Part shown: positions 31,552 to 57,658 of the stretch, piece after piece
Numbering within the stretch: position 1 is the stretch's first letter
Layout: the number at the start of each line of letters is the position of its first letter
Source of the DNA: Acaryochloris sp. CRU_2_0
GTDB lineage: Bacteria; Cyanobacteriota; Cyanobacteriia; Thermosynechococcales; Thermosynechococcaceae
Assembly (NCBI GenBank): GCA_012034865.1
Contig: JAAUOM010000003.1
Coordinates: 1 to 64,000, forward strand
Length of the DNA: 64,000 bases
Reading direction: 5' to 3'
Program-made: the position numbers and the translations under genes
The notes under the pieces: generated by a model
Databases searched by the model: none
What the model was told of the DNA's origin: nothing
The model's input: the letters and a program-made list of their open reading frames with translations, nothing else

Positions 31552-32016
31552 TTACAAGTTTTTCTCTAACTTCAGGCAGTTTTGATAGCTCGTTGGGCGC
31601 TCGTAGGCAATTTGCCATCCTTTATCGGTCATCAGCTTTAGCAAAATGATGCTTCCCCAATGGGCTTGCCGCTCAAGCGGATCAAATCTGTGGTCTGATG
31701 TAATCTGATGCATAGCTTGCAGATTGAGATCGAAATCAAACGCTTTTCCCTGATCCCAAATCCAAATCCTTAACACCTGGGAAGAAACTTGCACCTCTAG
31801 TGCAATGGGCGTACTAGGTGGTAGATGCTGATGGGCGTGCTGAACCGCGTTTGTAAATCCCTCAACAATAGCGATTTGGGCTTCTAGCCAGGTTTGTTGG
31901 CAAATTAGAGGTTTCTTAAATTGTTCAAACCAGGTGACAACGTCCGTCAATTTCTCTAAGTCCGTCTCAACCGTTAACCTGATGGTCTGGGTTTGAGGAT
32001 GTGAGTCTACTGACAT
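31552..32016 (-). CDS. RsbW-like anti-sigma/serine kinase (HATPase_c_2)
   Basis: A 154-residue GHKL-type serine kinase of the RsbW/SpoIIAB family. The N box is EGFTNAVQHAHQ and the G1 box WIWDQGKAFDF. The G2 region reads QAHWGSIILLKLM instead of the usual GxGL loop, so its ATPase should be tested. In partner switching such proteins phosphorylate a STAS partner or hold a target. ATG overlaps the stop of the STAS-sugar transferase gene (TGATG), so it is made coupled to its probable substrate. It is the last gene of the left exopolysaccharide arm. Confidence 0.85.
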   Translation of the reverse strand: MSVDSHPQTQTIRLTVETDLEKLTDVVTWFEQFKKPLICQQTWLEAQIAIVEGFTNAVQHAHQHLPPSTPIALEVQVSSQVLRIWIWDQGKAFDFDLNLQAMHQITSDHRFDPLERQAHWGSIILLKLMTDKGWQIAYERPTSYQNCLKLEKNL

Positions 32017-33017
32017 CAGACCGCTCCCGAGTCTTTGGTGAACAGAACAGCCACTGTTTTTAGGATTAATTTCAAGTCGTACATTAAACTCCAGTTTTTC
32101 TGGTAATGCAAGTCCAAGCGCATTACATCCTCAAATTTACGAACTTTAGAGCGACCATTGACTTGCCATTCTCCGCTCAGACCTGGTCTTACGTCCAAGC
32201 GCTGCCAATTTAAAACTTCGTATTGGCTAATTTCTTCGGGTGTTGGAGGGCGAGTACCGATCAGGCTCATATCCCCTTTGAGGACATTCCAAAACTGGGG
32301 TAACTCATCTAAGCTGGTTTTGCGTAAAAAACGCCCAACGCGAGTAATTCGCGGATCGTGATCATTTTTGAAAAAAGCTCCTTGCACTTGATTGGCAACT
32401 TCATGTTTCAGTGTTTCGGCATTGGTCACCATTGAGCGAAATTTCCAAATCCAAAAGCGTCGTCCCATTAACCCACACCGGACTTGCCGAAATAAAATGG
32501 GGCCTGGACTGTCCAGTTTAATGGCGATCGCGATGGGAACGAAAAGAATTGTTGTTATTCCTAACCCAACCAGGGAACCCACGATGTCGCCCGCCCGCTT
32601 AATCGGAGACTTCACAGACCGATGGGTGAGCAAGGGGCGTTGGGCAATCTGACGATTGGGTGTGGTGGGTGTGGGATCGGTATTCGGTTCTAACTCAAAG
32701 AGTTGCTCTAACCCTGCTAATGAAAACGCAAACTGGACTTGCGAATTGAGGCTCCACACGACAACCTTGATATTGCGTTGTTGCGCCATTTTTAAGCTGG
32801 CCAAGAGAGCGCCAATCCCACTGCTATCGATCAGTGTGGTTTGGCTAAAATCCAGAATCACCTTCTTCAGCGCGGCTTCTTTTTGCAGCAGCTCTTGGAA
32901 ATGGGTGCGGAAGCTAGGAGCCTCAATCACACTCAAGCGAACTGGAACCTGAATCAGTAGTGTTTCATTGACCAGGGTTGATGCCAGTGGAGGGGTTGGG
33001 GAAGAGTCAGAAAACAT
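32016..33017 (-). CDS. STAS domain fused to priming polyprenyl-phosphate sugar transferase
   Basis: A 333-residue fusion. Residues 15-112 are an anti-sigma-antagonist STAS domain with phosphorylatable serine in LIDSSGIGALLASLK (Ser65 by analogy with SpoIIAA). After a Pro/Thr-rich linker, residues 135-333 form a bacterial sugar transferase of the WbaP/WcaJ C-terminal type: one membrane helix (about 145-167), FRQVRCGLMGRRFWIWKFRSM split around WKFRSM, KTSLDELPQFWNVLKGDMS with the catalytic Asp-Glu, and GTRPPTP. It should load the first sugar phosphate onto undecaprenyl phosphate. The STAS part suggests direct control by the adjacent RsbW-like kinase and the PP2C at 43674. The first 112 residues closely match the free STAS protein upstream. 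Confidence 0.92.
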   Translation of the reverse strand: MFSDSSPTPPLASTLVNETLLIQVPVRLSVIEAPSFRTHFQELLQKEAALKKVILDFSQTTLIDSSGIGALLASLKMAQQRNIKVVVWSLNSQVQFAFSLAGLEQLFELEPNTDPTPTTPNRQIAQRPLLTHRSVKSPIKRAGDIVGSLVGLGITTILFVPIAIAIKLDSPGPILFRQVRCGLMGRRFWIWKFRSMVTNAETLKHEVANQVQGAFFKNDHDPRITRVGRFLRKTSLDELPQFWNVLKGDMSLIGTRPPTPEEISQYEVLNWQRLDVRPGLSGEWQVNGRSKVRKFEDVMRLDLHYQKNWSLMYDLKLILKTVAVLFTKDSGAV

Positions 33018-33495
33018 AGGCTTTTGGTGAGTTAATCAACAATGTTAGCGGGAAGAGACTGAATCTTGTCCTGAGCCAAACTGTTATTCGGTTCCAACTC
33101 AAAGAGTTGATCTAACCCCGTTAATGAAAATGTAAACTGGACTTGCAAATTGAGGCTACATACAGCAACTTTGATATCGCGTTGTTGCGCCATTTTTAAG
33201 CTGGCCAAGAGAGCGCCAATCCCACTGCTATCGATCAGTGTGGTTTGGCTAAAATCCAGAATCACCTTCGTCAGCGTGGCTTCTTTTTGCAGCAGCTCCT
33301 GGAAATGGTTACGGAAGCTAGGGGCTTCAATTACACTCAAGCGAGCTGGAACCTGAATCAGTAGTGTTTCATTGACCAGGCTTGATGCCAGTGGAAGGCT
33401 TTGGGAAGAGGTAGGAAACATAGGCTTTTAGTGAGTTAATCAATAACGTTAGTGTTAGTGTGAAGAAACAGAATCTTGGCTTAAGCCAAACTGTT
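32681..33495 (-). repeat. tandem duplication of about 404-410 bp covering STAS and the alg13 tail
   Basis: Unit 1 (32681-33085) and unit 2 (33085-33495) are diverged direct repeats. Each holds a STAS coding block, the spacer beginning CATAGGCTTTT, and a block ending GCCAAACTGTT that in unit 2 is the 3' end of the Alg13-like gene. Start codons of the two STAS copies lie exactly 404 bp apart; the spacers differ by six bases. The join at about 33085 places alg13-tail DNA, read in another frame, at the end of the free STAS gene. Confidence 0.85.
33032..33421 (-). CDS. free STAS-domain protein (anti-sigma factor antagonist type)
   Basis: A 129-residue STAS protein. About 95 of its first 112 residues equal those of the STAS part of the downstream fusion, including the phospho-acceptor motif TLIDSSGIGALL. 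Its last 17 residues (SLAQDKIQSLPANIVD) have no STAS counterpart and are translated from a duplicated piece of the alg13 3' end in a different frame. It lies 14 bp upstream of the fusion gene. It could compete with the fusion for the RsbW-like kinase and the phosphatase. It clearly arose by tandem duplication of the locus. Confidence 0.9.
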   Translation of the reverse strand: MFPTSSQSLPLASSLVNETLLIQVPARLSVIEAPSFRNHFQELLQKEATLTKVILDFSQTTLIDSSGIGALLASLKMAQQRDIKVAVCSLNLQVQFTFSLTGLDQLFELEPNNSLAQDKIQSLPANIVD

Positions 33496-33955
33496 GACGC
33501 AAGTTTTGACACAGGGAGATGGCCGCTGTTTCAGAGAAATCTGTTACAGTCACCTTCTGGGGAGCTTGCAAAAAGCGCACTAAATCTCCAGGAGACCAGG
33601 CGATCGGAACATTTACAGATGCTAATGCCAAAGCCATTTCTATCTGATGATCATCGACATGTTCTTTGAAGGCGTGGCAACGGGGTACCAAAATAAAGGG
33701 TTTGTCTAATGCATCAAGCAGAAGAACGCTCCCTTCTCCACAATGAGCTATAATCACCTGTGCTTGCTGAATTAAATCCTGAAAGCGATCTTCTTTTAGA
33801 ACCTTATAAACCTTGGCACCGGAAGGCAGAATTGTACTGCTGCCATATTGCACCACGACTTCATCCACAATCAGATTGTGGTTAAGCAACGCATCAATCC
33901 AATTCATCAGGCGATTAAAAGGATATTGCTCCGTTCCGACGGTCACTAAAATCAT
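33455..33955 (-). CDS. Alg13/PssE-like glycosyltransferase subunit
   Basis: A 166-residue protein like the C-terminal, UDP-sugar-binding half of GT28 enzymes: MILVTVGTEQYPFNRLM, the IIAHCGEGSVLLLDAL loop, then FILVPRCHAFKEHVDDHQ. Alg13-type subunits work with a membrane-bound Alg14 partner, encoded immediately upstream with a 4-bp ATGA overlap. Together they add the second sugar to a lipid-linked intermediate. Its 3' end is part of the tandem duplication that created the free STAS gene. Confidence 0.88.
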   Translation of the reverse strand: MILVTVGTEQYPFNRLMNWIDALLNHNLIVDEVVVQYGSSTILPSGAKVYKVLKEDRFQDLIQQAQVIIAHCGEGSVLLLDALDKPFILVPRCHAFKEHVDDHQIEMALALASVNVPIAWSPGDLVRFLQAPQKVTVTDFSETAAISLCQNLRQQFGLSQDSVSSH

Positions 33956-34407
33956 GAAGCCTCCGGGATTGTTACGAGTTCTGCTTGAGGATATCGGGCT
34001 TTTAAGCGTGGCCAGTGAACATAAATGACGCTTAAAAAGGGTAATGCCAGTCTGGCAGAGAGACTTAAGCTGCTCACCCGTGTTACTGACTCAATGAAAA
34101 CGGTGTTACTTCCCCATAGTTTGCCCAAAATTAAAAAGGGAACGGCCACACCTGCTCCCGTTGAGAGAATTAAATCGGGTTGTTCTTGCCGGAGTACCTT
34201 GACAGCAAGCCCTAGATTCCTCACCAGGTTTGGTAAATTCCGATTCGTGGGGCTATAAGCCCAAGCAACCTTGGCATCTTTTAAGAATACTTCGGTTGTT
34301 CCCGTCCGAAACGTAACCCAAGTGCAATCATGATCTTGCCAGAAGGGTTGCAATTGCTGGAGGGCTTTAAAATGTCCGCCGGATGAACAAACCAGTAATA
34401 TTTTCAT
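33952..34407 (-). CDS. Alg14/PssD-like glycosyltransferase subunit
   Basis: A 151-residue membrane-associated partner of Alg13. It starts with MKILLVCSSGGHFKALQQL, has the VTFRTGTTEVF segment, a GAGVAVPFLILGKL helix and FIESVTRVSSLSLSARL. Alg14/PssD binds the lipid-linked acceptor and recruits the catalytic partner. The stop overlaps the start of the Alg13-like gene, so the two halves are made in equal amounts. Confidence 0.88.
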   Translation of the reverse strand: MKILLVCSSGGHFKALQQLQPFWQDHDCTWVTFRTGTTEVFLKDAKVAWAYSPTNRNLPNLVRNLGLAVKVLRQEQPDLILSTGAGVAVPFLILGKLWGSNTVFIESVTRVSSLSLSARLALPFLSVIYVHWPRLKARYPQAELVTIPEAS

Positions 34408-34481
34408 AGGTAGTCTCTGGGTATTGGATGATTAAATAACCTGTCTCAACTCCTGCCTGATGAGAAGTTCCTGAACTAGAA

Positions 34482-35507
34482 TTAAGCGGATCGCTGCTCC
34501 TGCTGAATGCGCCTACGTTGGCTTAATCCTGTTATCCTCATTGCAACTGTTTCCAGTTGCTGATAGATCGCTGGTGGTAGAAGACGGAGAAAATAAACGG
34601 CACCAATGGTTAATAGGGTTCGGCGAGGTTCCTCTCGTAAGATTGTCCAGTCCGTCGCCAACGCTTTATGAAGAAGTTGCGTGGCAATTGTGGGCGATCG
34701 CTGGCTGGCAGCCCGTCGCGCTAAATACCGCAACTGGTAAGCTCTGGCTTTATCTGCCCACTGGTGCACAAAGTCGGGATGTTCCGCTTGAGTTTTCGTG
34801 ATGATGCGCTCCCACGCCTCATACTGCTTGAGAATATTGGCCGACAGTCCCCCCATATTGACGCGATAGAGAGTTAGGGCATCGGGAATGCCTGCAATTT
34901 TCCAGTTAGACTTCAAGGCAATGCGTAACCAACACTCAATATCTTCAGATTGGCGAAAGCTATCGTCAAAATAAAAGTCTTCTGGGTCTCCATATAAACT
35001 AGCCTGGAATTTAATGTCCTCCAGTACTTCTCTGCGTATGACAACGGCTGAACCATTACTAATCGGGTTCCGACAAAACAAATAACCGGGTGTGATATCT
35101 GTTAGTTTCGGCATTTGATAAATGCCCAAGGGTTGACCTTGTTCATCAATAAAACTAGAACGGCAGAAACTGACCCCAATGTCAGGATGGCGCTGGAAGT
35201 GTTCGATGTGCTTGGCCAGTTTTTCGGGTTGCCAGAGATCATCGCTATCTAGAAAGGCTAGATATTGACCTTGAGCGTGGCGAATCCCGGTGTTTCTAGC
35301 TCCTGCTAATCCTCGGTTTTGCTGATGAATGATGCGGATACGGGAATCAGAATAGCTTTGGCAAATTTCAATACTGCGATCGCACCCCCCATCGTCAATG
35401 ACAAGAATCTCAAAATCTGTAAAGGTCTGCGCCAAGACCGAATCCATCGTGGCGGCAACAGTACGCTCGGAATTATAAACGGGAATAATGACAGATACAG
35501 TGGGCAT
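34482..35507 (-). CDS. GT2 glycosyltransferase
   Basis: About 341 residues of a family 2 inverting glycosyltransferase. ATG at 35507 (MPTVSVIIPVYNSERTV) is preferred to the longer frame from 35534. The GT-A core has LVIDDGGCDRS, LAGARNTGIRHAQG, the metal-binding FLDSDDLWQPEKL and a SEDIECWLRIAL segment with the catalytic-type Asp. The C-terminus (EEPRRTLLTIGAVYFLRLLPP) may touch the membrane. It is a paralogue of the next gene upstream (35552). It probably adds a sugar to the lipid-linked repeat unit in the cytoplasm. Confidence 0.88.
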   Translation of the reverse strand: MPTVSVIIPVYNSERTVAATMDSVLAQTFTDFEILVIDDGGCDRSIEICQSYSDSRIRIIHQQNRGLAGARNTGIRHAQGQYLAFLDSDDLWQPEKLAKHIEHFQRHPDIGVSFCRSSFIDEQGQPLGIYQMPKLTDITPGYLFCRNPISNGSAVVIRREVLEDIKFQASLYGDPEDFYFDDSFRQSEDIECWLRIALKSNWKIAGIPDALTLYRVNMGGLSANILKQYEAWERIITKTQAEHPDFVHQWADKARAYQLRYLARRAASQRSPTIATQLLHKALATDWTILREEPRRTLLTIGAVYFLRLLPPAIYQQLETVAMRITGLSQRRRIQQEQRSA

Positions 35508-35551
35508 AGGGGGAATGGGGAATAGAAGGATCAAGGGTCATCAAAACAGTT

Positions 35552-36514
35552 TCAATCAGGGCTTTGGCTTGGTTTTGTTCTGGGATATTGCCCAGGTATT
35601 TGTGCAAGGGCATGTTGACCATAAACGGCGAGGAGTGTGGAGATCGTGCGGCGGGGTTCTTGCCACAACAGCGCCCGGTGCGATCGCAGCGATCGGTTGA
35701 TAAAATCTACCCCCACAGTTGAGTCCACCTGCAACCGAAAAGCGCGACGGGCTAAATAGCGCAAGTGAATGGCTTGGGCTTTGGCAAAGTGGCGATGCAC
35801 TAAATCGGGCGCATAGGTTTTCGCTTGGCTAACCAGGGTATTCCAGCCCGTTTCCATCCGATAGAGATCAGCAGACAAGCCGCCGGAACTCGTGCGATAA
35901 CGGGTCAAGACCTGGGGAATACCTTCAATTTGCCAATCCTGGGTACACATCACCCGCAGTAACCATTCCAGGTCTTCGGAATAGCTCATCGTTGGGCAAA
36001 AGCCCCCCACTGCGTTCCAAACCGCACGGCGGATCACCCAATTGGACGTGGTGGTTGTAGGGTTCTCCGAGAGAAAGTCTTCGGGTTTTAATCCTGTCAA
36101 ACGAGATGTGGATCGCTGCCCCGTCGAGGCTCCAGTCTGAGTGAGGATCTCCACTTGGGCAAAGCTTACCCCCACGTTTGGCTGGGATTGAAAGTGATCT
36201 AGGTGGGTTTTGAGTTTGGTCGGTAGCCATTGATCGTCAGCATCCAAGAACGCAATGATCTCACCTTGGCTTTCAGCAACCCCGCGATTTCTGGCAGTGG
36301 AAACTCCTTGGTTCCCTTGACGAAGGAGCCGAATGCGGGAGTCTTTTTGTTGATGGGCTTGGGCAATCTCAGCCGTGCGATCGCGCGACCCATCATCCAC
36401 AATCAGCAGTTCCCAGTCTTGAACCGTTTGCTGCTGGACTGAAGCGATCGTTTCTACTAAGAAATCCGCCGCATTGTAGGCGGGAATAATCACTGAAACC
36501 GCTGGTTGGATCAT
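35552..36514 (-). CDS. GT2 glycosyltransferase, C-terminus possibly frameshifted
   Basis: About 320 residues. ATG at 36514 (MIQPAVSVIIPAYNAADF) overlaps the flippase stop as ATGA. The GT-A motifs LIVDDGSRDRT, GVSTARNRGVAESQG, FLDADDQWLPTKL and YSEDLEWLLRVM are intact. It is a paralogue of the gene at 34482. After LLAVY (about 35620) the frame continues as GQHALAQIPGQYPRT, but another frame gives VNMPLHKYLGNIPEQNQAKALIETVLMT, which resembles the paralogue's end better. A two-base deletion there is possible. Confidence 0.85.
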   Translation of the reverse strand: MIQPAVSVIIPAYNAADFLVETIASVQQQTVQDWELLIVDDGSRDRTAEIAQAHQQKDSRIRLLRQGNQGVSTARNRGVAESQGEIIAFLDADDQWLPTKLKTHLDHFQSQPNVGVSFAQVEILTQTGASTGQRSTSRLTGLKPEDFLSENPTTTTSNWVIRRAVWNAVGGFCPTMSYSEDLEWLLRVMCTQDWQIEGIPQVLTRYRTSSGGLSADLYRMETGWNTLVSQAKTYAPDLVHRHFAKAQAIHLRYLARRAFRLQVDSTVGVDFINRSLRSHRALLWQEPRRTISTLLAVYGQHALAQIPGQYPRTKPSQSPD

Positions 36515-37788
36515 AAAATCACCTCCCGAAAGGCAGGTTTGAGAACTTGGCGGGTTGCCCAGAGGGTATAGAGGGGTTGCAAGATTAAATGGGTGAGCAT
36601 CACGGCGATCGCAGCGCCTAAAATTCCCCAAGTGGTGCCGATCCAAATGGCGGTGGCTAGACAGACCGTAAAGACGAAATTCCAGCGCAACTCAATTTGA
36701 GTGCGGCCAAAGGCTCTAAACATCAGGGATGCCGCATCGGCAAAGGGACGAGATAGAGCCGAAGCACAAATCAAAATTAAGATGGGAATTGCGCCTCGCT
36801 CGACCCACTTGTGACCAAAAACTAACGGCACATACAAGGGCGCTAAACTCGATTGCAAAACGACTAGCGGCACAATCAAAAAGCCAATTTTGCGTAAACT
36901 TTGGCTGTAGCGTGCCAGAAAGGCGGTCGTGTCCGCCTTGAGATCGCACAGATCAGAAAAGAGGGATACTCGAATGGCATTAATGACGCTTAAGCTAATG
37001 CCCAAACCCGCATTAAAGGCAAAATAATAAACCCCTAAAGCCTCAACCCCTACAAATCGACCAATTAACAAATAATCGACGTTTTCGCGGAAGGTTGTCA
37101 GCAACTCCACACTCAAAATCCGCGAGGCAAAACCAGTGATTTTGCGCCATTTGGCTAGTGTTAAGGATTGGGTCATCCGCCAAGGATGGTACTTAAAACT
37201 GAGGATGATCCAAATGGGAGCCACCAAGAACTTCGGTAAGACAATCGCCCACATGCCCCAACCGAACAACGCCAGGATCGCCGTCAAAACGTTATCCACG
37301 GAAACTTGCACTGAGCTTATCAGTGCTAGAATGTTTAAGCGATTTTCTCTCCGAATTAAGGCTGTTTGTATTGTGGCGAGGGGATAAATCAAATAGGTGA
37401 GGGCAATTAAGCAGATGGGCAAAATTAGCTTGGCGTTGGCATAAAACCCTGCGATCGCAAAGGCTGCCAAACATTGCACCGTAAATAGGACTGCCGCAAT
37501 CAGCCAATTGAGTCCATAGGCGGTTCGGCATAGTTCTTCGACTTCATCCGCATCGGCTTGGACAATTTTGTCGGCAATGCCATTGCGGGTAAAAACGCGA
37601 ATAAACTCATGAGTCGTCAGGACGATCGCCGCAAGGCCATAGTCTTCTGCGCTGAGAAGCCGTGCCAGGATCACCGTTGTACCGAGTCGAAAGATCCGGA
37701 TCACCATTTCCGATGCACCCATCCAGCCAATATTACGGACAAAGCGATCGCTCTTTAGGGCAGACAGTCTTTGGGTAAGCGACTTCAT
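36511..37788 (-). CDS. Wzx-type oligosaccharide flippase
   Basis: About 425 residues with roughly 12 membrane helices and the polysaccharide-flippase (MOP/Wzx) pattern: VRNIGWMGASEMVIRIFRLGT at the first helix, LARLLSAEDYGLAAIV next, and ESLGVYYFAF-like (EALGVYYFAFNAG) in the middle. It moves the undecaprenyl-linked repeat unit across the membrane. The ATG at 37788 overlaps the upstream GT4 stop (ATGA), favouring it over the frame from 37815. Confidence 0.9.
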   Translation of the reverse strand: MKSLTQRLSALKSDRFVRNIGWMGASEMVIRIFRLGTTVILARLLSAEDYGLAAIVLTTHEFIRVFTRNGIADKIVQADADEVEELCRTAYGLNWLIAAVLFTVQCLAAFAIAGFYANAKLILPICLIALTYLIYPLATIQTALIRRENRLNILALISSVQVSVDNVLTAILALFGWGMWAIVLPKFLVAPIWIILSFKYHPWRMTQSLTLAKWRKITGFASRILSVELLTTFRENVDYLLIGRFVGVEALGVYYFAFNAGLGISLSVINAIRVSLFSDLCDLKADTTAFLARYSQSLRKIGFLIVPLVVLQSSLAPLYVPLVFGHKWVERGAIPILILICASALSRPFADAASLMFRAFGRTQIELRWNFVFTVCLATAIWIGTTWGILGAAIAVMLTHLILQPLYTLWATRQVLKPAFREVIL

Positions 37789-38783
37789 GCCACCGCCTCC
37801 AGGAGGGCTTGCCATTGACTAAGATACCGATCCCAGGCTGATTCAGCAGAGCAACGGCCTTGCTGACCTAAGTTTGCCAATGCCTCTGGTGAACGATGGG
37901 CTAAATCCTGGATCGCCTTTGCCAATGCAACGGGATTTTCAGGTGGAACCAGTAGTCCACAGGCCTGCACCTGCTCACTCAACCCATCTACGGTAGAGAT
38001 AATCACAGGTGTTGCTGTGGCTCTCGCTTCTAGGCAAACATTGCCCCACGGTTCCCAGCGGGAGGGAATGACAACCGCATCACAGCGGCTCAAGAAACTG
38101 GGGACATCATCGATCCGCCCGACAAATTCTACAGTGGAACAACTTGCTGCTTGTTGTTTCAAGGGAGTTTCGTCTGTACCCGTTCCCCCAATCACAAGCT
38201 GGATACTGGGATCAGTCAGACCTTGCATGGCAGCAATCAAAACATCAAAGCCCTTTTGCGGACATAAGCGACCATAAGCACCCAGAACAAAGGGTTGATC
38301 GAGGTGTCTGGGCTTGGGGGGAACCGCCAGAAAATTGTCCACAATCCGGGAGGCTTGAATCAGGGCAATTTTAGATTCATCCACAAGACGATTTTTGATC
38401 ATCCATTGACGCTGGGCTTCGGAAACTGCTATGACGCGATCGCTCAGTCCGTAGGACAACCGCAGCATTGTTCGGAAGCGCAGCTTTGACGAAACGTTGA
38501 ACGTCTCAAAGTTGGCGGAATAGTGATGCTCGGTCAATAGCACTGGAGCGATCCGTTTCAGTTGCCACAAAGTTTTGAGTCCTTTCCAAGAACTGGGGGC
38601 ATGAAGGGCGATCGCAGTCGGTTTTTGATGGGGAGGATTGGCTAAAAAGTGATCTAAATTCATTCCCTCAAATGTGAAGGAATCAGCAAGGCCAGACTCC
38701 ATTAGGCTTTTGAGTGTCGCAGAGATACCCCCTGTCCATCCCATGCCATGACTATTGATCAAATGAAAGATCGTTGGTTTCAT
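37785..38783 (-). CDS. GT4 glycosyltransferase
   Basis: A 332-residue GT-B enzyme of family 4. The start region has the glycine-rich MGWTGGISATLKSLM and the acceptor-side LLTEHHYSANFE. The donor half has GAYGRLCPQKGFDVLI, VVIPSRWEPWGNVCLEARA and TPVIISTVDGLSEQV with the E(x7)E region. It is joined to its neighbours by 4-bp overlaps on both sides. The sugar is unknown. Confidence 0.9.
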   Translation of the reverse strand: MKPTIFHLINSHGMGWTGGISATLKSLMESGLADSFTFEGMNLDHFLANPPHQKPTAIALHAPSSWKGLKTLWQLKRIAPVLLTEHHYSANFETFNVSSKLRFRTMLRLSYGLSDRVIAVSEAQRQWMIKNRLVDESKIALIQASRIVDNFLAVPPKPRHLDQPFVLGAYGRLCPQKGFDVLIAAMQGLTDPSIQLVIGGTGTDETPLKQQAASCSTVEFVGRIDDVPSFLSRCDAVVIPSRWEPWGNVCLEARATATPVIISTVDGLSEQVQACGLLVPPENPVALAKAIQDLAHRSPEALANLGQQGRCSAESAWDRYLSQWQALLEAVA

Positions 38784-39841
38784 GGTGCGATCGCCCGTTG
38801 ATAGCAGTCTTGAAAATCCTGTTGCACCTGCTGCCGAATGGGAGCATGGTCAAAGGTTTGGTCAGCCGTTTTTTCCATTACGCTAACCTGGGCTTCTGGA
38901 TCAAACTCTTCAAGGCTACAGCCGGGAATTTGTAACCGCTGGGTAAGATCTCGCCCTTTATTGGAGTAGTACAAATTAAACGGAACCCGCCCACTAGCAA
39001 GGCTCAAAATGGCAGTGTGATAGCGAACTGCGACGCTAAAACGACAAATTGCCAGGGCAGCCATTACCCGTTCCCAGTTCGCACAGCGATACTCACCGAC
39101 AAAGGGATCGAAAATTTTAGTGGCTGGCACCTGCTGGACAATGGTTTGCGCGATCGCTAAATCATGATCCGCTCCATAGGCTTTAGCCTGAAGTAACAGA
39201 ACGGGTTGATGTCCTCGACTCAGTAGAGTACGGCACAGTGTTACCAGATGGCGCTGAAACTGGGTATTGTCCTGGGTATACATGGAGTCGAACCCACGCA
39301 ATGAAATCAGTACGGCGGTGTCAGGTGTAATATCTAATGACTGAAACCCCTGGACTGCTTCCTGCTTAGCCGCTGCCCTCAGCGATAAACTAAACGCCAC
39401 ATCATAGGACAACTGCGCTGCAACCCCTGCTTGTGTCAGACGCTTGTGACTCTCGACGTCCCGCACACACACCGCTGCCAAGCGTCGAAAACAAAACGCT
39501 AAGGCCTGAAAGCTCAGACCATGACAGGACCGTGGAATGGATTGACCAAACACAAGTGTGTGCTGGGGCGATCGCCACAGTTGGCGCAAATTTAGTAAAA
39601 AGGCTTTGGTCACCAGCCTTTCACGGGCGTTGTTGAAGATATCTCCCCCCACACTGATATAGGCATCACAGGGGGGGAGGGCTTCAATAACTTGAATTCC
39701 GGGGGTATATTCAGTCTGGAAATCTTGAAACTGAGCGAAGACCCTAGCATCGGGCAGCATCCCTGCAAAGGCGCTGTAGATGGCTGAATCCCCAATATTG
39801 AGGGTTGAGTAGGTATTAATAAGACCTATCTTAGAATCCAT
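38780..39841 (-). CDS. polysaccharide pyruvyl transferase family protein
   Basis: A 353-residue protein of the CsaB/WcaK-type pyruvyl transferase family, which puts ketal-linked pyruvate on polysaccharide sugars. It opens with IGLINTYSTLNIGDSAIYSAFAG, the usual start with a nucleotide-type loop, and has ISVGGDIFNN, FGQSIPRSCHG and the C-terminal VAVRYHTAILSLASGRVPF carrying the conserved R-H. It is the first gene of the left arm. A 246-bp divergent promoter region separates it from the sensor kinase gene. Confidence 0.87.
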   Translation of the reverse strand: MDSKIGLINTYSTLNIGDSAIYSAFAGMLPDARVFAQFQDFQTEYTPGIQVIEALPPCDAYISVGGDIFNNARERLVTKAFLLNLRQLWRSPQHTLVFGQSIPRSCHGLSFQALAFCFRRLAAVCVRDVESHKRLTQAGVAAQLSYDVAFSLSLRAAAKQEAVQGFQSLDITPDTAVLISLRGFDSMYTQDNTQFQRHLVTLCRTLLSRGHQPVLLLQAKAYGADHDLAIAQTIVQQVPATKIFDPFVGEYRCANWERVMAALAICRFSVAVRYHTAILSLASGRVPFNLYYSNKGRDLTQRLQIPGCSLEEFDPEAQVSVMEKTADQTFDHAPIRQQVQQDFQDCYQRAIAP

Positions 39842-40087
39842 GAGTTTTAGAACCTCATGCTAGAGTTGTCAACGATCGTAACCGACCAACATAACTCGAT
39901 CTTCATTGTGCCTAGCTGCCGCTTGTAGCGAAACGCTTGTTTTTTAGGACTTATCAGTGAGTATGCCCGAATCACCCAGAGAAAGAACAATCCTAATGAC
40001 TTTTCTGGGCGGGTGCCTGAGAAGTATCCGACGCTGCTTTTGGGTACCCTACGGTTTTGAGGTACTGTGTAGCGGGTATTCACACTC

Positions 40088-43000
40088 ATGCCTTCCATCT
40101 CTAAACGGTTATGGACGCTAGTTAAGACCCAACCTTGGCTACTGGGTAAACAAAATCCTGGTTCTATCCCTTTACGAGTGATTTTGGTTGTCCCGTTTGC
40201 CCTCCAAATTTGTGGGGTAGTTGGACTGGTGGGATGGCTATCATTCCGAAATGGTCAACAAGCCGTCAGCAACCTGGCCAATCAGTTAATCGATAAGCAT
40301 CATCACGTGATTGCAGACCATTTGAAACAGTATATGGCTGAACCCCATCGGATTAACCGCTTAAACGCCGATGCCATCCAACTGGGGCAACTCAATTTAA
40401 AAGATTTTCAGCGATCGGGGCATCATTTTTGGAAACAATCCCAGCACTTTGACGTAACTTATATTGGAGGCGCACTTCCCACTGGAGAGTTCTCAGGAGC
40501 AGGGCGTTGGTTACCTGGTCAAGGAACAACGATTGATGAGCGCTCAGCACGCCTGGGCCACAGAAACTATACCTATGCCACCGATGATCAGGGCAACCGG
40601 AAAAAAGTGGTTTACATTTACGGTTATGATCCCAGGGAAGAAAACTGGTTTTCTGCTGCCATTCAATCCCGAAAACCCGTATGGTCTGCTGTCTTTAACT
40701 GGGACGAAACACCAGAATTATTATCCATTGATGCGGGATACCCGGTGTATGATGCCCAAAATCGGTTGATGGCTGTTTTAGATACTTCCTTATTGCTTTC
40801 CGATATTAGTGCATTCTTAAGAACACTTGACATAAGCACTCCTGGATCGGTGACCATTATCGAGCAAGATGGCGCACTGATAGCGAGTTCGAAGGCCGAA
40901 AAACCCTTTGACTTGGTGAATGGTAAGGCTGAGCGCCTCAATATTCTCAAGAGCCGTGATCCGGAAATCCAGGCCATAGGGAAGCATATCCAGCAACAGT
41001 TTGGGAATTTCCAGAATATAAAAATCAAGCAAGTTTTCAGCTTTGAACATCAGGGGCAACGACAATTCCTCCAGATTGAACCTTGGCGAGATGAGTATGG
41101 TTTGATCTGGCTGGTGGCGATCGCCATTCCTGAGTCTGAGTTTATGGCACAAACTCATCAAAATAGCCGTAACACAATTATCTTATGTTTACTGGCTTTA
41201 GCTGTTGCAATAGGTCTGGGTTTACTGACGACAAAATTAATTTTGCATCCGATTCAGCAATTGATCCAAAAAATATCGCGATCGCCGTGGGAGACTTTAC
41301 CTTCCCCTACAATCCTAGTGCAATTTTTGAATTAGATCAGTTGTCAAAAATTTCCCATTCAATGGCTCAGCAATTGCAGGAATCTCTAGAAGCATTAGAG
41401 TTGCGGGTTGCCGATAGAACCAAGATCTTACAGAAAACTGAGCAAAGATATCGGAGTATCTTTGAAAATTCCAGAGAAGGTATTTTTCAAACGATGCCAA
41501 ATGGTGATTATATTACCGTTAATCCAGCCTTAGCTTACATGTATGGCTACCATTCCCCCGTAGATTTAATCAAAAATTTAAGCAATGTCAATCGAGGACT
41601 TTATGTCGATCAAAATCGACGGGCAAAGTTTATTGAGATAATTGAAAGAGATGGCTCAGTTATAGGATTTATTTCCCAAATTAAAACCAAAACTGGGCAA
41701 CGAGTTTGGATCGCTGAGAATGTCCATCGTGTTTGTGACGATCAAGGACAATTACTGTATTACGAGGGTACGGTACAAGATATTACAGCCCAAAAAAAGA
41801 CTGAGGCCATTCTTCAGCGGCAGTTATTAGCCTTTGAGGTCGCCAGTGAAGGAATTGCCATCTTAACCGATCAAAAATTCATCTATGTCAATCCTGCCCA
41901 TGTGGAACTCTTTGGCTACAGAAACGTTGACGATATGATGGCCAAATCCTTAAACATGTTTTATCCACCCGAAGAGAATCAGCATTTTGAGCAAGAAGTT
42001 TTTCCCATTCTGGAATCTCAAGGACATTGGCAAGGAGAAGCCATTGCCATGCGAAAAGATGGTAGTTTATTTGTCGAAGAACTCTCATTAGCATTAGCGG
42101 ATAATGGAGATTGGGTTTGCATCTGTCGAGATATTTCTGAACGAAAAAAAATGCAGGATAGTCTAGAGAAATCACGATATGAAGCCGAAAGTGCCAATCG
42201 CACTAAAAGCCAATTTCTGGCAAATATGAGCCATGAGTTGCGAACGCCATTGAATGCCATTTATGGATTTTCTCAATTACTTGATCGAGATACTACCCTC
42301 TCTTCAGAAAGTCGAGAATATGCTGAAATAATTAATAAAAGTAGCACCCATCTTTTGGGTTTAATTAATGACATTTTAGATATGTCAAAAATCGAGGCAG
42401 GATTGGTGAATATTGTCACCCATAATTTCGATCTCTATAAACTGCTGGATATGATTGCAGCAATGTTTAAGCTCAAGGTTGATTCGACGGCTGTTAGTCT
42501 GAACTTTTCGTGCCAACAAACTGTTCCTCGTTATGTCGTCACGGATGAAAATAAATTACGTCAGGTATTAATTAACCTGGTGGGAAATGCAGTGAAATTT
42601 ACAACAATGGGTTACATCCATGTGAACGTGTCAGCCACTGGACAAACGCTGTCTATCCCCGAATCTTCGGTATCCCTCCATTTTAGTGTTGAAGATTCTG
42701 GGTCTGGGATTGCCAACGCAGAACTGGATAGTTTATTCAAACCCTTTGTCCAAACGACAAGCGGTCGGCACCTCCAGCAAGGAACGGGACTAGGACTGAG
42801 TATTAGTCAAAAATTTGTAGAGTTGATGGGGGGCAAACTCACCGTAGAAAGCACCGTGGGGCAAGGAACAACTTTTCAATTCTGGATCAAGGCTCACGTT
42901 GGACAGTCTGAAGTCATGGCCAGTAGCTTATCAGCGAGGACGGTAATCGGGCTGGCTCCCCATCAGCCCACCTATCGCATCTTGATTGCGGATGATCAAG

Positions 43001-43602
43001 CAAATAATCGTCGCTTGTTAGTGCAACTCCTTTCCCCGCTGGGGTTTGAGCTTAAAGAAGTGACCAATGGCCGTGATGCGATCGCACAATGGGAAAACTG
43101 GTCACCCCATTTGATTTTGATGGATATGCGGATGCCAGAGATGGATGGTTACCAGGCAACACGCTATATCAAGGCACAGTCACAGGGGGCTTCTATCCCA
43201 ATTCTGGCTTTGACCGCTAGTGCTTTGTTAGAACAGCAATCGGAGATCTTGGCAGCCGGGTGTGACGATTGTATTTACAAGCCATTTCATGAAGGAGAGT
43301 TGTTTAGCAAGCTTGAGGAGCATCTCTCGGTTCAATTTCTCTACCATTCATCCCCCCAAGAAATGGATCAAACAGCCTTATCTCCAGACTTACCCCTATC
43401 CCCTCATGAGTGGGTAAGTGTGATGTCTCCAGATTGGATTGCAGCCCTCCACACCGCTGCTAGGAGTGGCGATGATGACCAAATTCATGACCTCATTTCC
43501 CAGGTTCCACCTGAGCAAACTCGATTCATTGAGCAGCTAACGGAGTTAGCCAATCAGTTTGCCTTCGAGAAAATTTTAAAACTCACTTCATTTCAAAGTT
43601 AA
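40088..43602 (+). pseudogene. Cache-PAS-PAS hybrid histidine kinase, one-base frameshift
   Basis: Two frames form one kinase of about 1,171 residues. The first has a membrane helix (VILVVPFALQICGVVGLVGW), a large extracytoplasmic double-Cache sensor (for example YGYDPREENWFSAAIQ) and a second helix (IILCLLALAVAIGLGLL). The second frame has two PAS domains, HisKA with phospho-His in FLANMSHELRTPLNAIYGF, an ATPase (LVGNAVKF, GTGLGLSIS) and a receiver (LILMDMRMPEMDGYQ). The break lies in six A at about 41270-41275; a seventh restores QKNIAIAVGDF. It is divergent from the glycan genes and 71 bp upstream of the PP2C regulator, its likely target. Confidence 0.9.
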
Positions 43603-43673
43603 AAACCTGGGTCAATAATTTTGACTTTGATCGCATTCTCAAGCTAACCCAACTTAACGAGAGAATTCAAACC

Positions 43674-44792
43674 ATGCAAGATAAAAACCCTGCTGATATT
43701 TTAGTGGTAGATGACACACCTGCTAATATTCGTTTATTAGCTCAGATGCTTTCTGTTCTAGGCTACAAGGTCAGAAAAGCAACCAATGGTGAAATGGCGC
43801 TGGATGCAGTCTCCATGATACCCCCTGATTTAATTTTGCTAGATATTAACATGCCTGGCATGGATGGCTATCAAGTTTGTCAACGGCTCAAAGATAATGC
43901 TAAGACCGCTGATATTCCAGTTATTTTCATCAGCGCTCTAGATGAAATTATGGATAAGTTAAAAGGTTTTAATGTCGGTGCGGTGGATTACATCACCAAA
44001 CCTTTTCAACTGGTGGAAGTTCAGGCTCGTGTCAAAACCCACATTTCCCTCCAACAGCTCCAGAAAGAGTTACAACATAAAAACCAACTGTTAGAAGAAG
44101 AACGCTTAAGAGCAGGTCAAGTACAAGCCGATTTACTCCCTAAAGATATCCCGAAGTTACCTGGGTTTAGCCTAGCCGCTTACTGTCTGCCCGCTAAAGA
44201 AGTCGGTGGAGACTTCTATGATTGGCAAATGGATGATTCAGGATATTTTAATTTCTTGCTCGGTGATGTAATGGGCAAAGGAATGCCGGCTGCCTTATTA
44301 ATGACGACAGTTCGGGCAACACTCAGAGCCTTGAGTACCCAACTGACCCTCAGCAGCCGCATTAATGCTGCTCAATCCCTCTTGGCTACGGATTTTGGCC
44401 ACTCAGAAAGTTTTGTAACCTTATTCTGCGGGCAACTCAACTGTCAAGATCGTCACCTCTCCTATATCGATGCAGGTCATGGCGTGGTTTTTATAAAACG
44501 GGCTTCTAGTACGATTGATCTGCTAGCTAACAGTGGCATTCCCCTAGGAATTCTCCCTCAGCAAACCTACAAAACCGGAACATTCCATTTTCAACCTCAG
44601 GATGCCTTGCTATTATTCAGTGACGGCATTCTTGAGCTATTACCTGATGCCAATCAAAATCCTCAAATCTTTGCCTCCCTATTACAAGGGGTAACTGGAG
44701 CAAGGGAGATCGTAGATCGAATCCTCAGTATTCTGCCGCAAGATCAAGAACTAGGTGATGATTTGACAATACTTATTTTGTCCTGTCACTGA
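43674..44792 (+). CDS. response regulator with SpoIIE/RsbU-type PP2C phosphatase
   Basis: A 372-residue protein. Residues about 8-125 form a receiver (ILVVDDTPANIRLLAQML, phospho-Asp in LILLDINMPGMDGYQV, Lys in YITKPF). A coiled coil (about 130-155) leads to a PP2C-type serine phosphatase with KEVGGDFYDWQ, LGDVMGKGMPAALLM and DDLTILIL carrying the metal-binding aspartates. RsbU/SpoIIE enzymes dephosphorylate STAS proteins, so the two STAS proteins at 32-33.4 kb are natural substrates. It follows the hybrid kinase and precedes wza. Confidence 0.93.
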   Translation: MQDKNPADILVVDDTPANIRLLAQMLSVLGYKVRKATNGEMALDAVSMIPPDLILLDINMPGMDGYQVCQRLKDNAKTADIPVIFISALDEIMDKLKGFNVGAVDYITKPFQLVEVQARVKTHISLQQLQKELQHKNQLLEEERLRAGQVQADLLPKDIPKLPGFSLAAYCLPAKEVGGDFYDWQMDDSGYFNFLLGDVMGKGMPAALLMTTVRATLRALSTQLTLSSRINAAQSLLATDFGHSESFVTLFCGQLNCQDRHLSYIDAGHGVVFIKRASSTIDLLANSGIPLGILPQQTYKTGTFHFQPQDALLLFSDGILELLPDANQNPQIFASLLQGVTGAREIVDRILSILPQDQELGDDLTILILSCH

Positions 44793-44894: not shown

Positions 44895-45938
44895 ATGCTC
44901 AAATATTTATATCTCTCGCTCTACAGTTTTCTCTTGAGTTGTGTGTGGGTACTTCCTGGCTGGGGGTTGCCACTGTCTCCAGGCGATCGCCTAAAAATCA
45001 GCATTCCTGAAGGTGAAGAGTTCAACGGCATCTATGAGGTCAATGTAGATGGGACTCTGGGGATTCCCTATCTAGAACCTTTACCCGTTGTCGGGTTAGA
45101 ACTACCGGAGGTACAGCAACAAGTAACCCAATCGCTGATCCAAGGGGGGTTTTTTCAGCCCTCATTTTTAAGAGTGAGTGTGAATCTTGTTCAGTGGGCT
45201 CCCATTGAAGTCTTTGTCAGTGGCGAAACCTATTTGCCAGGACGTGTTCTGATCAATGAGCAATCGGATGCTGAAAAAACGCAACCTCTTGTACCAGTGA
45301 CAGGGCAATACGCCAGCCAGAGAATGCTCACGAGTGCGATTCGGAATGCAGGCGGCATCAAACCCAATGCCAATATCCAAGCCATTCAACTCATCCGCAA
45401 TGGGCAAACTCGACTGTTTGATTTATCCGGCATTTTTACAGGCATTCCTGTTGAAGATGTGCCTTTGGTCGCGGGCGATCGGATCGTTGTCCCAGACGCA
45501 GGGGAGATCAATCCGTCCCTGGTGCGCCCCTCTGCCATTACCCCAGTGGGGGTGAAAATTTTTCTATCTAATCTGACCGTTCCTGCTACGGGTAATGCGA
45601 TTTCGGGGATTGGACGGGACGCAACCTCCTTTCCCTACGGTTCTCGGTTTTCTCATGGGGTAACCGCAGCCAATTGTGCTGGAGGCACGAAAACCACCAA
45701 TGCAGGTCGGCGCGCGCTTCTCGTTAGAACCGATCAACTCACTGGAAAAACCCAATATTTAGAGCGCAAGGTGGATGACATTCTCAAAAAATCTATTAAT
45801 GATGCTGAGAACCCTTTCTTGATGGCGAACGATTCCATTGCTTGCTACGACTCGCCCACGATCCAAGCACGAGATATTGTAGACACCATTGTCAAATTCT
45901 TATCGCCTTTTTCTCTAATTAAAGAGTTATGGCCATGA
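44895..45938 (+). CDS. Wza-like polysaccharide export protein
   Basis: A 347-residue periplasmic/outer-membrane exporter. A signal peptide (LYSFLLSCVWVLPGWG) is followed by the polysaccharide export domain (LSPGDRLKISIPEGEEFNG, VNVDGTLGIPYLEPL) and a SLBB-type repeat (PIEVFVSGETYLPGRVLI, then LTSAIRNAGGIKPNANI, VAGDRIVVPDAG). A lipobox cysteine is not in the usual place. The C-terminal third is variable. It overlaps the Wzc-like gene by 10 bp. Confidence 0.9.
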   Translation: MLKYLYLSLYSFLLSCVWVLPGWGLPLSPGDRLKISIPEGEEFNGIYEVNVDGTLGIPYLEPLPVVGLELPEVQQQVTQSLIQGGFFQPSFLRVSVNLVQWAPIEVFVSGETYLPGRVLINEQSDAEKTQPLVPVTGQYASQRMLTSAIRNAGGIKPNANIQAIQLIRNGQTRLFDLSGIFTGIPVEDVPLVAGDRIVVPDAGEINPSLVRPSAITPVGVKIFLSNLTVPATGNAISGIGRDATSFPYGSRFSHGVTAANCAGGTKTTNAGRRALLVRTDQLTGKTQYLERKVDDILKKSINDAENPFLMANDSIACYDSPTIQARDIVDTIVKFLSPFSLIKELWP

Positions 45939-47347
45939 CGGAAATCATCCCTATTCCTAACTCTATAGCCAAAAGGAAAGGCATCATTGGCCTACTGACG
46001 AATCGTTGGACTCGTTACATTGTCCTCTGTGGATGTGCCAACATGTTTATCTGGGGATCCTCTCTCGGCTATTTAAAAAAAGCACAGCCGATCTATACCA
46101 GTCACTGGGTGCTCATTTTACCGGGAGCTTCTTTTGGCGTGAACTTCAACCTACCTGAAATCGGCCAAGCCTCGTCTTCCAATGGCTCTGGAATGGGAAG
46201 TTCTACCTATGATCCTAGAGCGAATTACGAATATATTTTTACGAGTGATCCAGTGATTGATCTAGCCGCCGAGATCGCCAAAGTTCCTGCTGGATCGTTC
46301 GGCAAACCCCGGATTAAATTGCTGGATAACACTACCATGATGGAGTTTGAGCTAACTGGGAAAAACCCTCAAGAAGCTCAGCGAAAATCGTGGGCGATGC
46401 ACCAAGCCGTGGTCAAGCAACTCAATGGCCTTCGCGATCGCGAAATTCGCCAGCGACAAAGCCCCACTCAAACTATCCTCAAGTCCGCGCAGCAAAAACT
46501 CGAACAATCCCAATCCAAACTCTCTGCTTACAAAGTCTCCTCTGGTCTGAGTTTCCCTGAACAACTGAGTAACCTCTCCGTTAATATTGAACAGTTGCGT
46601 CGTCTTCGGGTTGAAACCCAAGCCCAGGAACAACAAGCTGCTAAGCGAGTACAAAAACTAGCGATCGATTTAGGGCTATCTTCAACCCAAGCCGCAGAAG
46701 CCTTTCTCTTACAATCGGATCAAATTTTTCAACAAAATCTCAAGGACTATAGCGAAGCCACTGCCACGTTGGAAGTGTTACAGAAGAAATTTGGTCCTAA
46801 TCATCCCCAAGTCGCTAAAGAAGTAAACCGTCAACTCTCGGCAGGATCAGCCCTATCCCAGCGCGGTCAGACATTATTAGGTCGATCAGTAGATCAAGCC
46901 CACCTCATTCAATTGAGTCTGGCTACCAATGGAGCCGGACGAGACCCGTTATTCCAGAATTTGGTTTCGTACCAAGCCGATCAACGCGGCCTACAAGCCC
47001 AAATCAAGTCCCTCAATCAACAAATTCCTAAGCTCGAAAAGCAATTGGAAACCCTAGCGCAACGACAGTCCACCCTGGATAACCTCAAGCGAGATATGCA
47101 AATTGCGGAAGCAGTATTTGCCTCTACTCTGGCAAAGCTTGATCTTAGCCAAGGGGATCTATACTCAGCATACCCTTTAGCACAAATGGCTGTAGAACCC
47201 AGCTTACCGGTTGCACCCACGTCTCCTAAAAAAGGTGTTATTTTGGCGGGTTCTGCTCTTGGCTCTATATTTACAACCCTGGGCTTAACGCTGATGTGGA
47301 TTCGTAAACCCTGGATTAAAAAACTATCGAAGCTCATCTCACCTTAG
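45929..47347 (+). CDS. Wzz/GumC-type polysaccharide co-polymerase
   Basis: A 472-residue chain-length/export protein with two membrane helices (YIVLCGCANMFIWGSSLGYL and GVILAGSALGSIFTTLGLTL), flanking a long periplasmic coiled coil rich in Gln (about 170-400). The typical Wzz proline-rich segment is near the end (PSLPVAPTSPKKG). There is no cytoplasmic tyrosine kinase domain, unlike Wzc. The start may be Met3 (45935), which would overlap the wza stop as ATGA. Confidence 0.87.
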   Translation: MAMTEIIPIPNSIAKRKGIIGLLTNRWTRYIVLCGCANMFIWGSSLGYLKKAQPIYTSHWVLILPGASFGVNFNLPEIGQASSSNGSGMGSSTYDPRANYEYIFTSDPVIDLAAEIAKVPAGSFGKPRIKLLDNTTMMEFELTGKNPQEAQRKSWAMHQAVVKQLNGLRDREIRQRQSPTQTILKSAQQKLEQSQSKLSAYKVSSGLSFPEQLSNLSVNIEQLRRLRVETQAQEQQAAKRVQKLAIDLGLSSTQAAEAFLLQSDQIFQQNLKDYSEATATLEVLQKKFGPNHPQVAKEVNRQLSAGSALSQRGQTLLGRSVDQAHLIQLSLATNGAGRDPLFQNLVSYQADQRGLQAQIKSLNQQIPKLEKQLETLAQRQSTLDNLKRDMQIAEAVFASTLAKLDLSQGDLYSAYPLAQMAVEPSLPVAPTSPKKGVILAGSALGSIFTTLGLTLMWIRKPWIKKLSKLISP

Positions 47348-57654: not shown

Positions 57655-57658
57655 GGCC

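Follow-up and report, generated by a model that had tools for sequence, protein, structure and literature searches.

STAS domains fused to priming sugar transferases in cyanobacterial polysaccharide loci as putative direct targets of a partner-switching kinase and phosphatase

Does partner switching in cyanobacteria act on the enzyme that starts a polysaccharide, without a sigma factor in between? This question is raised by a locus of Acaryochloris sp. CRU_2_0 (assembly GCA_012034865.1), which we analysed in a window of 64,000 nucleotides (contig JAAUOM010000003.1, positions 1 to 64,000 of the forward strand). Here, as proposed in an original prediction made from the bare sequence, an RsbW-type kinase, a free STAS protein and a fusion of a STAS domain with a sugar transferase are adjacent on one strand, which we could confirm in coordinates and strands by Pfam and the open reading frames (ORFs). 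The prediction had further placed a receiver-PP2C phosphatase and a histidine kinase on the divergent arm of this Wzx-type locus, and both were found there. We propose that kinases and phosphatases of the P0001 and P0006 type probably determine whether the STAS domain carried by the priming enzyme itself is phosphorylated, with no sigma factor involved. The features on which this proposal is built are the following (REC, receiver).

31552 to 32016, minus strand: RsbW-type serine kinase P0001 with HATPase_c_2 (Pfam, fold, motif residues)
32016 to 33017, minus strand: STAS-sugar-phosphate transferase fusion P0002, putative priming enzyme (Pfam STAS and Bac_transf, fold)
32823 to 32825, minus strand: codon of Ser65, the first DSSG serine of the fused STAS and its putative phospho-acceptor (conserved motif)
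33032 to 33421, minus strand: free STAS protein P0003, tandem duplicate of the fused STAS, not HmpV-like (Pfam, tree, DNA identity)
43674 to 44792, plus strand: REC-SpoIIE phosphatase P0006 of the PP2C type, a candidate for dephosphorylating the STAS domains (Pfam)

P0001 matches HATPase_c_2 with 41.5 bits (cut-off 27.4), and its predicted structure (pLDDT 87, 13 sequences) retrieves SpoIIAB and RsbW chains as top fold matches, RsbW also being the nearest solved chain by sequence. E52, N56, G90 and G121 are invariant in all 42 kinases of an alignment (A1) drawn entirely from fusion loci, all 42 of which are HATPase_c_2 proteins by Pfam; the conserved Asn and Gly presumably correspond to the N-box and the G-box. 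By domain, fold and these conserved residues P0001 belongs to the RsbW/SpoIIAB type, and it stays below the equivalog levels of RsbW (38.2 bits, cut-off 145) and SpoIIAB (19.1 bits, cut-off 135). The ATG of the kinase gene and the stop codon of the fusion overlap by one base in the window (TGATG).

The fusion P0002 combines STAS (53.3 bits) with Bac_transf (222.7 bits), domains that were detected at E ≤ 0.001 in 50 and 51, respectively, of the 51 fusions of a second alignment (A2). One hydrophobic helix precedes Bac_transf, and D237 and E238, a pair which we take to be catalytic, are invariant in the 51 rows, as in small membrane phosphoglycosyl transferases (PGTs). Fold matches of the P0002 model are, in this order, PglC, WbaP, and SpoIIAA together with other STAS chains; the transferase part matches PglC, the STAS part fits the SpoIIAA chains 1tid, 1th8, 1til and 1thn with a root-mean-square deviation of 1.4-1.6 Å, and the nearest solved chains by sequence are WbaP, PglC and SpoIIAA. 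With its STAS fold, its D-S-[ST]-G motif and a serine of the phospho-acceptor type, the domain belongs to the anti-sigma-antagonist type, Ser65 being the first serine of DSSG in P0002 and in P0003 (STAS, 60.9 bits). P0006 is a PP2C/SpoIIE phosphatase with a receiver (Response_reg, 104.2 bits; SpoIIE, 132.2 bits), and its sequence contains four Asp-bearing motifs that are presumably metal-binding.

The linkage of these genes in relatives was analysed with local profiles grown from P0001, P0003 and P0006 in 122 hand-picked fusion loci. The first set comprises the 43 loci (L035-L076 and L078) from named genomes that, among 80 returned, have an ORF with STAS and PGT. The second set comprises 79 loci picked by hand from the matches listed, for which family f13 was thinned to three loci, some near relatives in other families were left out and L200, which is without a fusion, was dropped; the two sets overlap, the kinases of L072 and L181, for example, being identical. 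The maximum flank length was 10 kb for one of the sets and 8 kb for the other; flanks were shorter at contig ends and covered less than 1 kb downstream of the fusion in L037, L126 and L167. Kinase frames were taken from stop to stop, and distances, counted from the open frame, do not show start-codon overlap in relatives. As controls we used 37 related PGT loci without a fusion (L077 and L079-L114, of which L111, L113 and L114 are non-cyanobacterial by title), all with at least 2.9 kb downstream and 33 of the 37 with at least 5 kb.

A same-strand kinase frame lies within 600 bp downstream of the fusion at 50 of the 122 loci, and within 100 bp at 38 of these 50. The first set contributes 11 of 43 loci and the second 39 of 79, the latter not being a population frequency because the loci were hand-picked and thinned; kinase-bearing loci occur in 14 of the 26 families of the second set. 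One further locus (L125) has a convergent kinase, which brings the kinase-bearing loci to 51 of 122. Neither kinase nor phosphatase was detected at any of the 37 control PGTs, for which the scan was repeated with the final profile. Once the loci were thinned at 80% identity, 35 of 80 fusion loci but 0 of 37 controls had any kinase (Fisher p=1e-7). A SpoIIE phosphatase accompanies the fusion at 12 of the 51 loci with a kinase and at none of the 71 without (9 of 35 vs 0 of 45 after thinning at 80%, p=3e-4). Ten phosphatases, eight of them beside fusions, were checked by Pfam and all contain SpoIIE; seven of the eight have a full or partial receiver, and the one of Laspinema (L064) has PAS domains. 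Free STAS, kinase, phosphatase and fusion come together in ten loci (L064, L067, L075, L121-L123, L147, L162, L169 and L171). Since the controls have no kinase and the phosphatase is found only where a kinase is, we consider a chance neighbourhood unlikely. The linkage suggests that in many cyanobacteria the enzyme starting the outer-coat polymer carries a built-in switch, by which the polymer would be turned on and off at the first step.

The residue on which the proposed switch would act is nearly always retained. Ser65 is kept in 121 of the 122 fusions (51 of 51 with and 70 of 71 without a kinase), and the serine following it is replaced by C, M, T or K in five fusions without a kinase. Gly69 is lost in five of the 122, all without a linked kinase (L182, L190, L194, L195 and L197). 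Three of these (L190, L195 and L197) come from genomes of one genus, in which the best match to the kinase profile reaches 33-42 bits. L182 is the unlinked second fusion of a genome (G235) in which the motif of the other fusion, L181, is intact and accompanied by a linked kinase. L194 has lost Ser65 together with Gly69, though its genome has a 141-bit kinase match. The Gly69 losses represent few evolutionary events and are only suggestive.

STAS domain and kinase also co-diverge: in 39 pairs their distances correlate when the PGT distance is accounted for (partial r 0.57, reached in 0 of 2000 permutations). The kinase tree pairs P0001 with the kinase of the nearest locus, that of G019 (99/92), within a branch of 25 rows (100/97), 23 of which are labelled fusion-linked and two orphan; one orphan, L245, adjoins a broken fusion. 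A separate branch of 35 rows (93/89) contains 23 of the 26 phosphatase-linked kinases. The genome of the window itself encodes one kinase of the P0001 family at E ≤ 1e-22.

In a tree of 135 STAS domains (96 of them fused), which has many unresolved forks and is built from short domains, 36 free STAS domains form one group (100/96), 15 of them from beside fusions. P0003 lies outside this group and pairs with its own fused STAS (100/99), from which we reject an HmpV-like identity of P0003, the comparison containing no named HmpV. The DNA of the two is alike in 310 of 345 bases, with dN 0.092 and dS 0.166. Regions 33032-33421 and 32673-33017 of the window are about 90% alike in DNA, which probably reflects either a recent duplication or gene conversion; the free/fused pair of G019 is more diverged. 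Free STAS genes were found near 13 of the 51 kinase-bearing fusions and in the flanks of none of the other 38. Among the controls, a free STAS gene immediately precedes the PGT in two, and a STAS match lies at a distance of about 6 kb in one. Where a free STAS gene (L086:9298-9768, L089:9444-9869 and L200:8902-9297) is directly followed by a priming transferase without STAS, the pair can be interpreted as a split form of the fusion.

The steps that we infer, namely phosphorylation, dephosphorylation, the sign of control and the signal, would fit together as follows. The priming enzyme would be a small sugar-phosphate transferase of the membrane whose N-terminal part is a STAS domain, and P0001 would bind and phosphorylate Ser65 of this domain and of the tandem free copy P0003, which would thereby compete for the kinase. 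A receiver-driven PP2C phosphatase, most likely P0006 under the control of the neighbouring hybrid histidine kinase, would remove the phosphate. Activity, partners or placement of the attached transferase would then depend on whether its STAS domain is phosphorylated or bound by the kinase, so that synthesis might be gated at the first committed step by protein modification and not via a sigma factor. That the dephosphorylated form would be the active one is a guess by analogy with HmpV and SypA.

Three other explanations have to be weighed against this direct control, and one of them leads back to transcription. The fused STAS could be an anti-anti-sigma domain and the kinase an anti-sigma factor titrated by the membrane enzyme, with a distant sigma factor giving the output; the folds match SpoIIAB/SpoIIAA and RsbW/RsbV, whose output is a sigma factor, and the genome (92% complete) has 15 Sigma70_r2 matches. 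However, all 15 lie on other contigs, the 112-kb contig of the window (C179) having no sigma match, which supports the predicted switch without a sigma factor. Moreover, among the matches listed, one of 16 genomes with linked modules (G130) has a sigma match within 10 kb of the fusion, at about 9 kb, and for a related system HmpV has been described as being itself the output (PMC6495340). We judge the transcriptional explanation to be improbable.

Alternatively, the fused STAS could be a scaffold independent of phosphorylation (for dimerisation, or for binding of lipid or nucleotide), with kinase and phosphatase acting on other STAS proteins. This would account for the 71 of 122 fusion loci without a kinase in the flanks, for the fusion XssP, which works with the altered motif DSAAIVYL, for the three genomes of one genus with kinase matches of just 33-42 bits, and for the free STAS genes near 13 of 51 kinase-bearing fusions. 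It fits poorly with the retention of Ser65 in all fusions except one, with the absence of kinases from the control PGTs and with the loss of Gly69, which is confined to fusions lacking a linked kinase and in three cases concerns the genomes with weak kinase matches. We regard this explanation as unlikely. Finally, the free STAS could be the real output on another target and the fused copy a decoy, as the ten loci with all four components might suggest. Here, however, P0003 is a recent copy of the fused STAS rather than HmpV-like, and a free STAS is lacking from the flanks of 38 of the 51 kinase-bearing loci, which leaves this explanation very improbable.

Several observations also weigh against the proposed switch on the priming enzyme itself. 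P0006 is encoded 10 kb from the fusion, on the opposite arm, and shares about 28-32% identity with the REC-SpoIIE phosphatases beside other fusions, and genomes of the same genus (G006) and family (G014) with fusion and kinase have no full-length P0006 relative at E ≤ 1e-40. A histidine kinase was detected in the flanks of 5 of the 12 phosphatase loci, in three of them beside the phosphatase. The fusion-linked kinases are not one group in the tree, four changes being needed. The correlation of PGT and kinase distances given STAS likewise beats all permutations (0.31), and such correlations can reflect co-inheritance of neighbouring genes. The P0002 model is of modest confidence (pLDDT 77, pTM 0.56, 29 sequences). 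Furthermore, the serine of DSSG may be kept for structural reasons, and the conservation of Ser65 alone is therefore not proof. Linkage in relatives, set beforehand as a test, came out in the 50 loci and at none of the controls, but it is not universal, since no such kinase was detected in the flanks covered for 71 of the 122 fusion loci (fewer than 200 bases downstream in L037 and L167). The predicted direct switch on the first enzyme of polymer assembly is thus backed by conserved linkage, by a phosphatase found only near a kinase and by the retained Ser65, and it is limited by this incomplete linkage.

How does the locus relate to known systems? In the SiaA/B/C/D system of Pseudomonas aeruginosa, a phosphorylated partner protein directly controls an enzyme; the output there is a diguanylate cyclase that is not fused to the partner, whereas here the STAS domain is fused to the transferase. 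A SiaB-SiaC entry is a weak fold match to the kinase model. RsbW/RsbV and SpoIIAB/SpoIIAA resemble the kinase and the STAS domain in fold and conserved motif residues, but here no sigma factor is in the locus and the STAS domain carries an enzyme. The parallel with SypE/SypA of Vibrio fischeri, drawn in the original prediction, holds insofar as phosphorylation of a STAS serine controls polysaccharide, the unphosphorylated form being active (PMC8256260, PMC4517449). SypE is a dual kinase/phosphatase (PMC8256260), whereas here kinase and REC-SpoIIE phosphatase are separate genes and the STAS domain is on the enzyme. SypE/SypA is not the closest relative either, as homologous kinases sit in modules resembling HmpUVW of Nostoc punctiforme.

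Indeed, among 40 loci around related kinases elsewhere in cyanobacterial genomes (L245 included), 26 have a SpoIIE-type profile match, 17 of these together with a free STAS; one of the 26 phosphatases (L237) was checked by Pfam. The assignment of these modules to the HmpUVW make-up rests on architecture and on neighbouring hmpU-hmpW locus tags, not on named Hmp sequences; hmpU and hmpW tags are neighbouring in Nostoc and Leptolyngbya, with hmpV distant (PMC10581220). The difference lies in the STAS domain, which here is fused to the priming transferase and forms a group separate from the free STAS of those modules. Their kinases, when beside SpoIIE-type phosphatases, mostly fall in the branch (93/89) apart from P0001, with no named HmpW among the rows. 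An identification of P0006 as an HmpU-like phosphatase is unsupported at its identity of 28-32% to the REC-SpoIIE phosphatases, though the architecture is the same.

Two fusions of this kind have been studied genetically. The Anabaena protein all4160 is named a STAS-glycosyltransferase (PMC8256260), and heterocyst envelope polysaccharide depends on it (PMC4390870). The other is encoded on plasmid pSYSM of Synechocystis 6803 (56854-57807; L273:12855-13808, NC_005229), is 52% identical to P0002 and has DSAAIVYL instead of DSSGIGAL. By its position before a STAND/NACHT regulator and two-component genes it is taken to be XssP, and no kinase or phosphatase match was found in the 28 kb around it. 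Both resemble P0002 as STAS-transferase fusions. XssP is called a priming glycosyltransferase of synechan, its deletion abolished bloom formation and suppressed exopolysaccharide, and the regulation described for its locus is transcriptional, by XssQ/R/S (PMC8205485). The word STAS is absent from the main texts of the two XssP papers (term search, PMC8205485, PMC13125312).

Partner-switching systems in which the STAS protein has an output that is not a sigma factor are already known, and the STAS-transferase fusion has been noted in print (PMC8256260). In the literature searched, to which subscription papers were mostly external, we found no description of this circuit or of a conserved linkage of kinase, or phosphatase, to the priming enzyme. 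Control of cyanobacterial exopolysaccharide is described at the level of transcription in the synechan papers (PMC8205485, PMC13125312). A phospho-switch on the priming enzyme, if true, would act without new transcription and before carbon is committed, and it would offer a direct, assayable output for partner-switching systems such as HmpUVW, in which HmpV is an output in its own right onto an effector described as undefined (PMC6495340, PMC8256260). The studied fusions XssP and all4160 make the general idea testable in model strains. A wider and more doubtful possibility, which we put forward tentatively, is that fusions of STAS with priming transferases serve cyanobacterial partner switching as an effector throughout the phylum, independently of sigma factors, the linked kinase being dedicated and an HmpW-like kinase and phosphatase acting in trans elsewhere. 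If fusions without a linked kinase were served in this way, the fusions would therefore be the missing class of Hmp targets, and coat, slime and heterocyst-envelope polysaccharides could share one post-translational tap.

On the divergent arm, P0006 is preceded by the histidine kinase, which lies in two overlapping frames.

40088 to 41335, plus strand: Cache-like sensor part of the histidine kinase, frame ending inside the gene (Pfam)
41185 to 43602, plus strand: PAS-PAS-HisKA-HATPase-REC part of the same kinase in another frame (P0005, Pfam)

P0005 contains PAS (two stretches), HisKA, HATPase_c and Response_reg, and the Cache part scores below the cut-off for dCache_1 (39.5 vs 45) and above that for MCP-like_PDC_1 (29.3 vs 27). 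The predicted Cache hybrid kinase is therefore present in its domains and split in its reading frame. Because a relative in another genome (G017) is one ORF of 1250 amino acids with Cache, HAMP, PAS, GAF, HisKA, HATPase and REC, the copy in the window is probably frameshifted or misassembled. Beside this single-ORF kinase lies a P0006 relative with a receiver and without a SpoIIE match above threshold (L270:7909-8976). The genome of the window has four SpoIIE matches, P0006 included. Two SpoIIE phosphatases and a weak STAS match share one of its other contigs (G000:C181:12370-20672), which is perhaps a second partner-switching cluster; one of these two phosphatases has a Cache-like region resembling P0004.

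The remaining genes belong to the polysaccharide locus proper.

33455 to 33955, minus strand: PssE/Alg13-like half of a putative second-sugar transferase (match below the PssE model cut-off)
33952 to 34407, minus strand: PssD/Alg14-like half of a putative second-sugar transferase (family match)
34482 to 35534, minus strand: glycosyltransferase family 2 (family match)
35552 to 36646, minus strand: glycosyltransferase family 2 (family match)
36511 to 37815, minus strand: Wzx-type flippase (family match)
37785 to 38783, minus strand: glycosyltransferase group 1 (family match)
38780 to 39841, minus strand: polysaccharide pyruvyl transferase (family match)
44895 to 45938, plus strand: Wza-type polysaccharide export protein (Pfam)
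45929 to 47347, plus strand: weak chain-length determinant match, far below family cut-offs (family models)
47553 to 48884, plus strand: possible Wzy polymerase without a family match (hydropathy)

Transcription of the minus strand thus runs from the pyruvyl transferase over the group-1 glycosyltransferase, the flippase, the two family-2 glycosyltransferases, the PssD- and PssE-like halves and P0003 to the fusion and the kinase, and that of the plus strand from the two histidine kinase frames over P0006 and the export protein to the weak chain-length determinant match and the candidate Wzy. Production of an exported polysaccharide by a Wzx-type route is the best explanation of the locus and, taken jointly with the whole mechanism, a probable one. 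The locus had been predicted to be of the Wzx/Wzy type; the flippase is supported by its family match, but no family model calls a Wzy, and the protein at 47553-48884, with six hydropathy-predicted membrane stretches, is a candidate at most.

The nearest relative of the whole locus belongs to another genus of the same family (G019). Its first contig preserves the gene order of the window from the kinase through fusion, free STAS, PssE, PssD, both family-2 glycosyltransferases, Wzx and the group-1 glycosyltransferase to the pyruvyl transferase, which is preceded by about 1 kb of additional DNA, and ends in the Cache frame. The remainder of the histidine kinase is on a second contig, together with the beginning of the export gene and, between the two, a phosphatase that shares 69% identity with P0006; several locus frames of this assembly are broken, the fusion among them. 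In family f32, two loci compared gene by gene (L121 and L124) have the same polysaccharide genes, fusion, kinase and an adjoining REC-SpoIIE phosphatase. L122 and L123 also have fusion, kinase and phosphatase, and L121-L123 a free STAS of another type than that of the window. From the comparison of the window/G019 type with family f32 we conclude that histidine kinase, REC-phosphatase, kinase and STAS-transferase are united within a single polysaccharide locus in two lineages, whose sensors differ. Hybrid kinases with HNOBA, GAF, HisKA, REC and Hpt adjoin the phosphatase in three loci of family f32 (L121:11624-15166, L122:11467-15453 and L123:11436-15434), and an H-NOX gene (L121:15075-15737, minus strand) lies next to the hybrid kinase in L121, the only locus examined for H-NOX, suggesting that haem-based sensing of NO or O2 may bear on polymer priming there.

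Relatives of P0002 that cover both domains occur in many cyanobacterial families; the 264 of 388 genomes with P0002 matches include STAS-free transferases and are not a fusion count. A fusion 54% identical to P0002 is present in the purple sulphur bacterium Rhabdochromatium marinum (L071:7840-8991), likely by horizontal transfer. No natural kinase-STAS fusion was found among the ORFs scanned, and two long ORFs considered as such (L173 and L185) were rejected. These (L173:8001-10022 and L185:6789-9008) instead join Alg13-like and Alg14-like glycosyltransferase, STAS and Bac_transf in single ORFs, and a further single ORF (L125:8001-9419) joins an Alg13-like glycosyltransferase, STAS and Bac_transf, so that these ORFs bring the first and second sugar steps of the pathway together in one protein.

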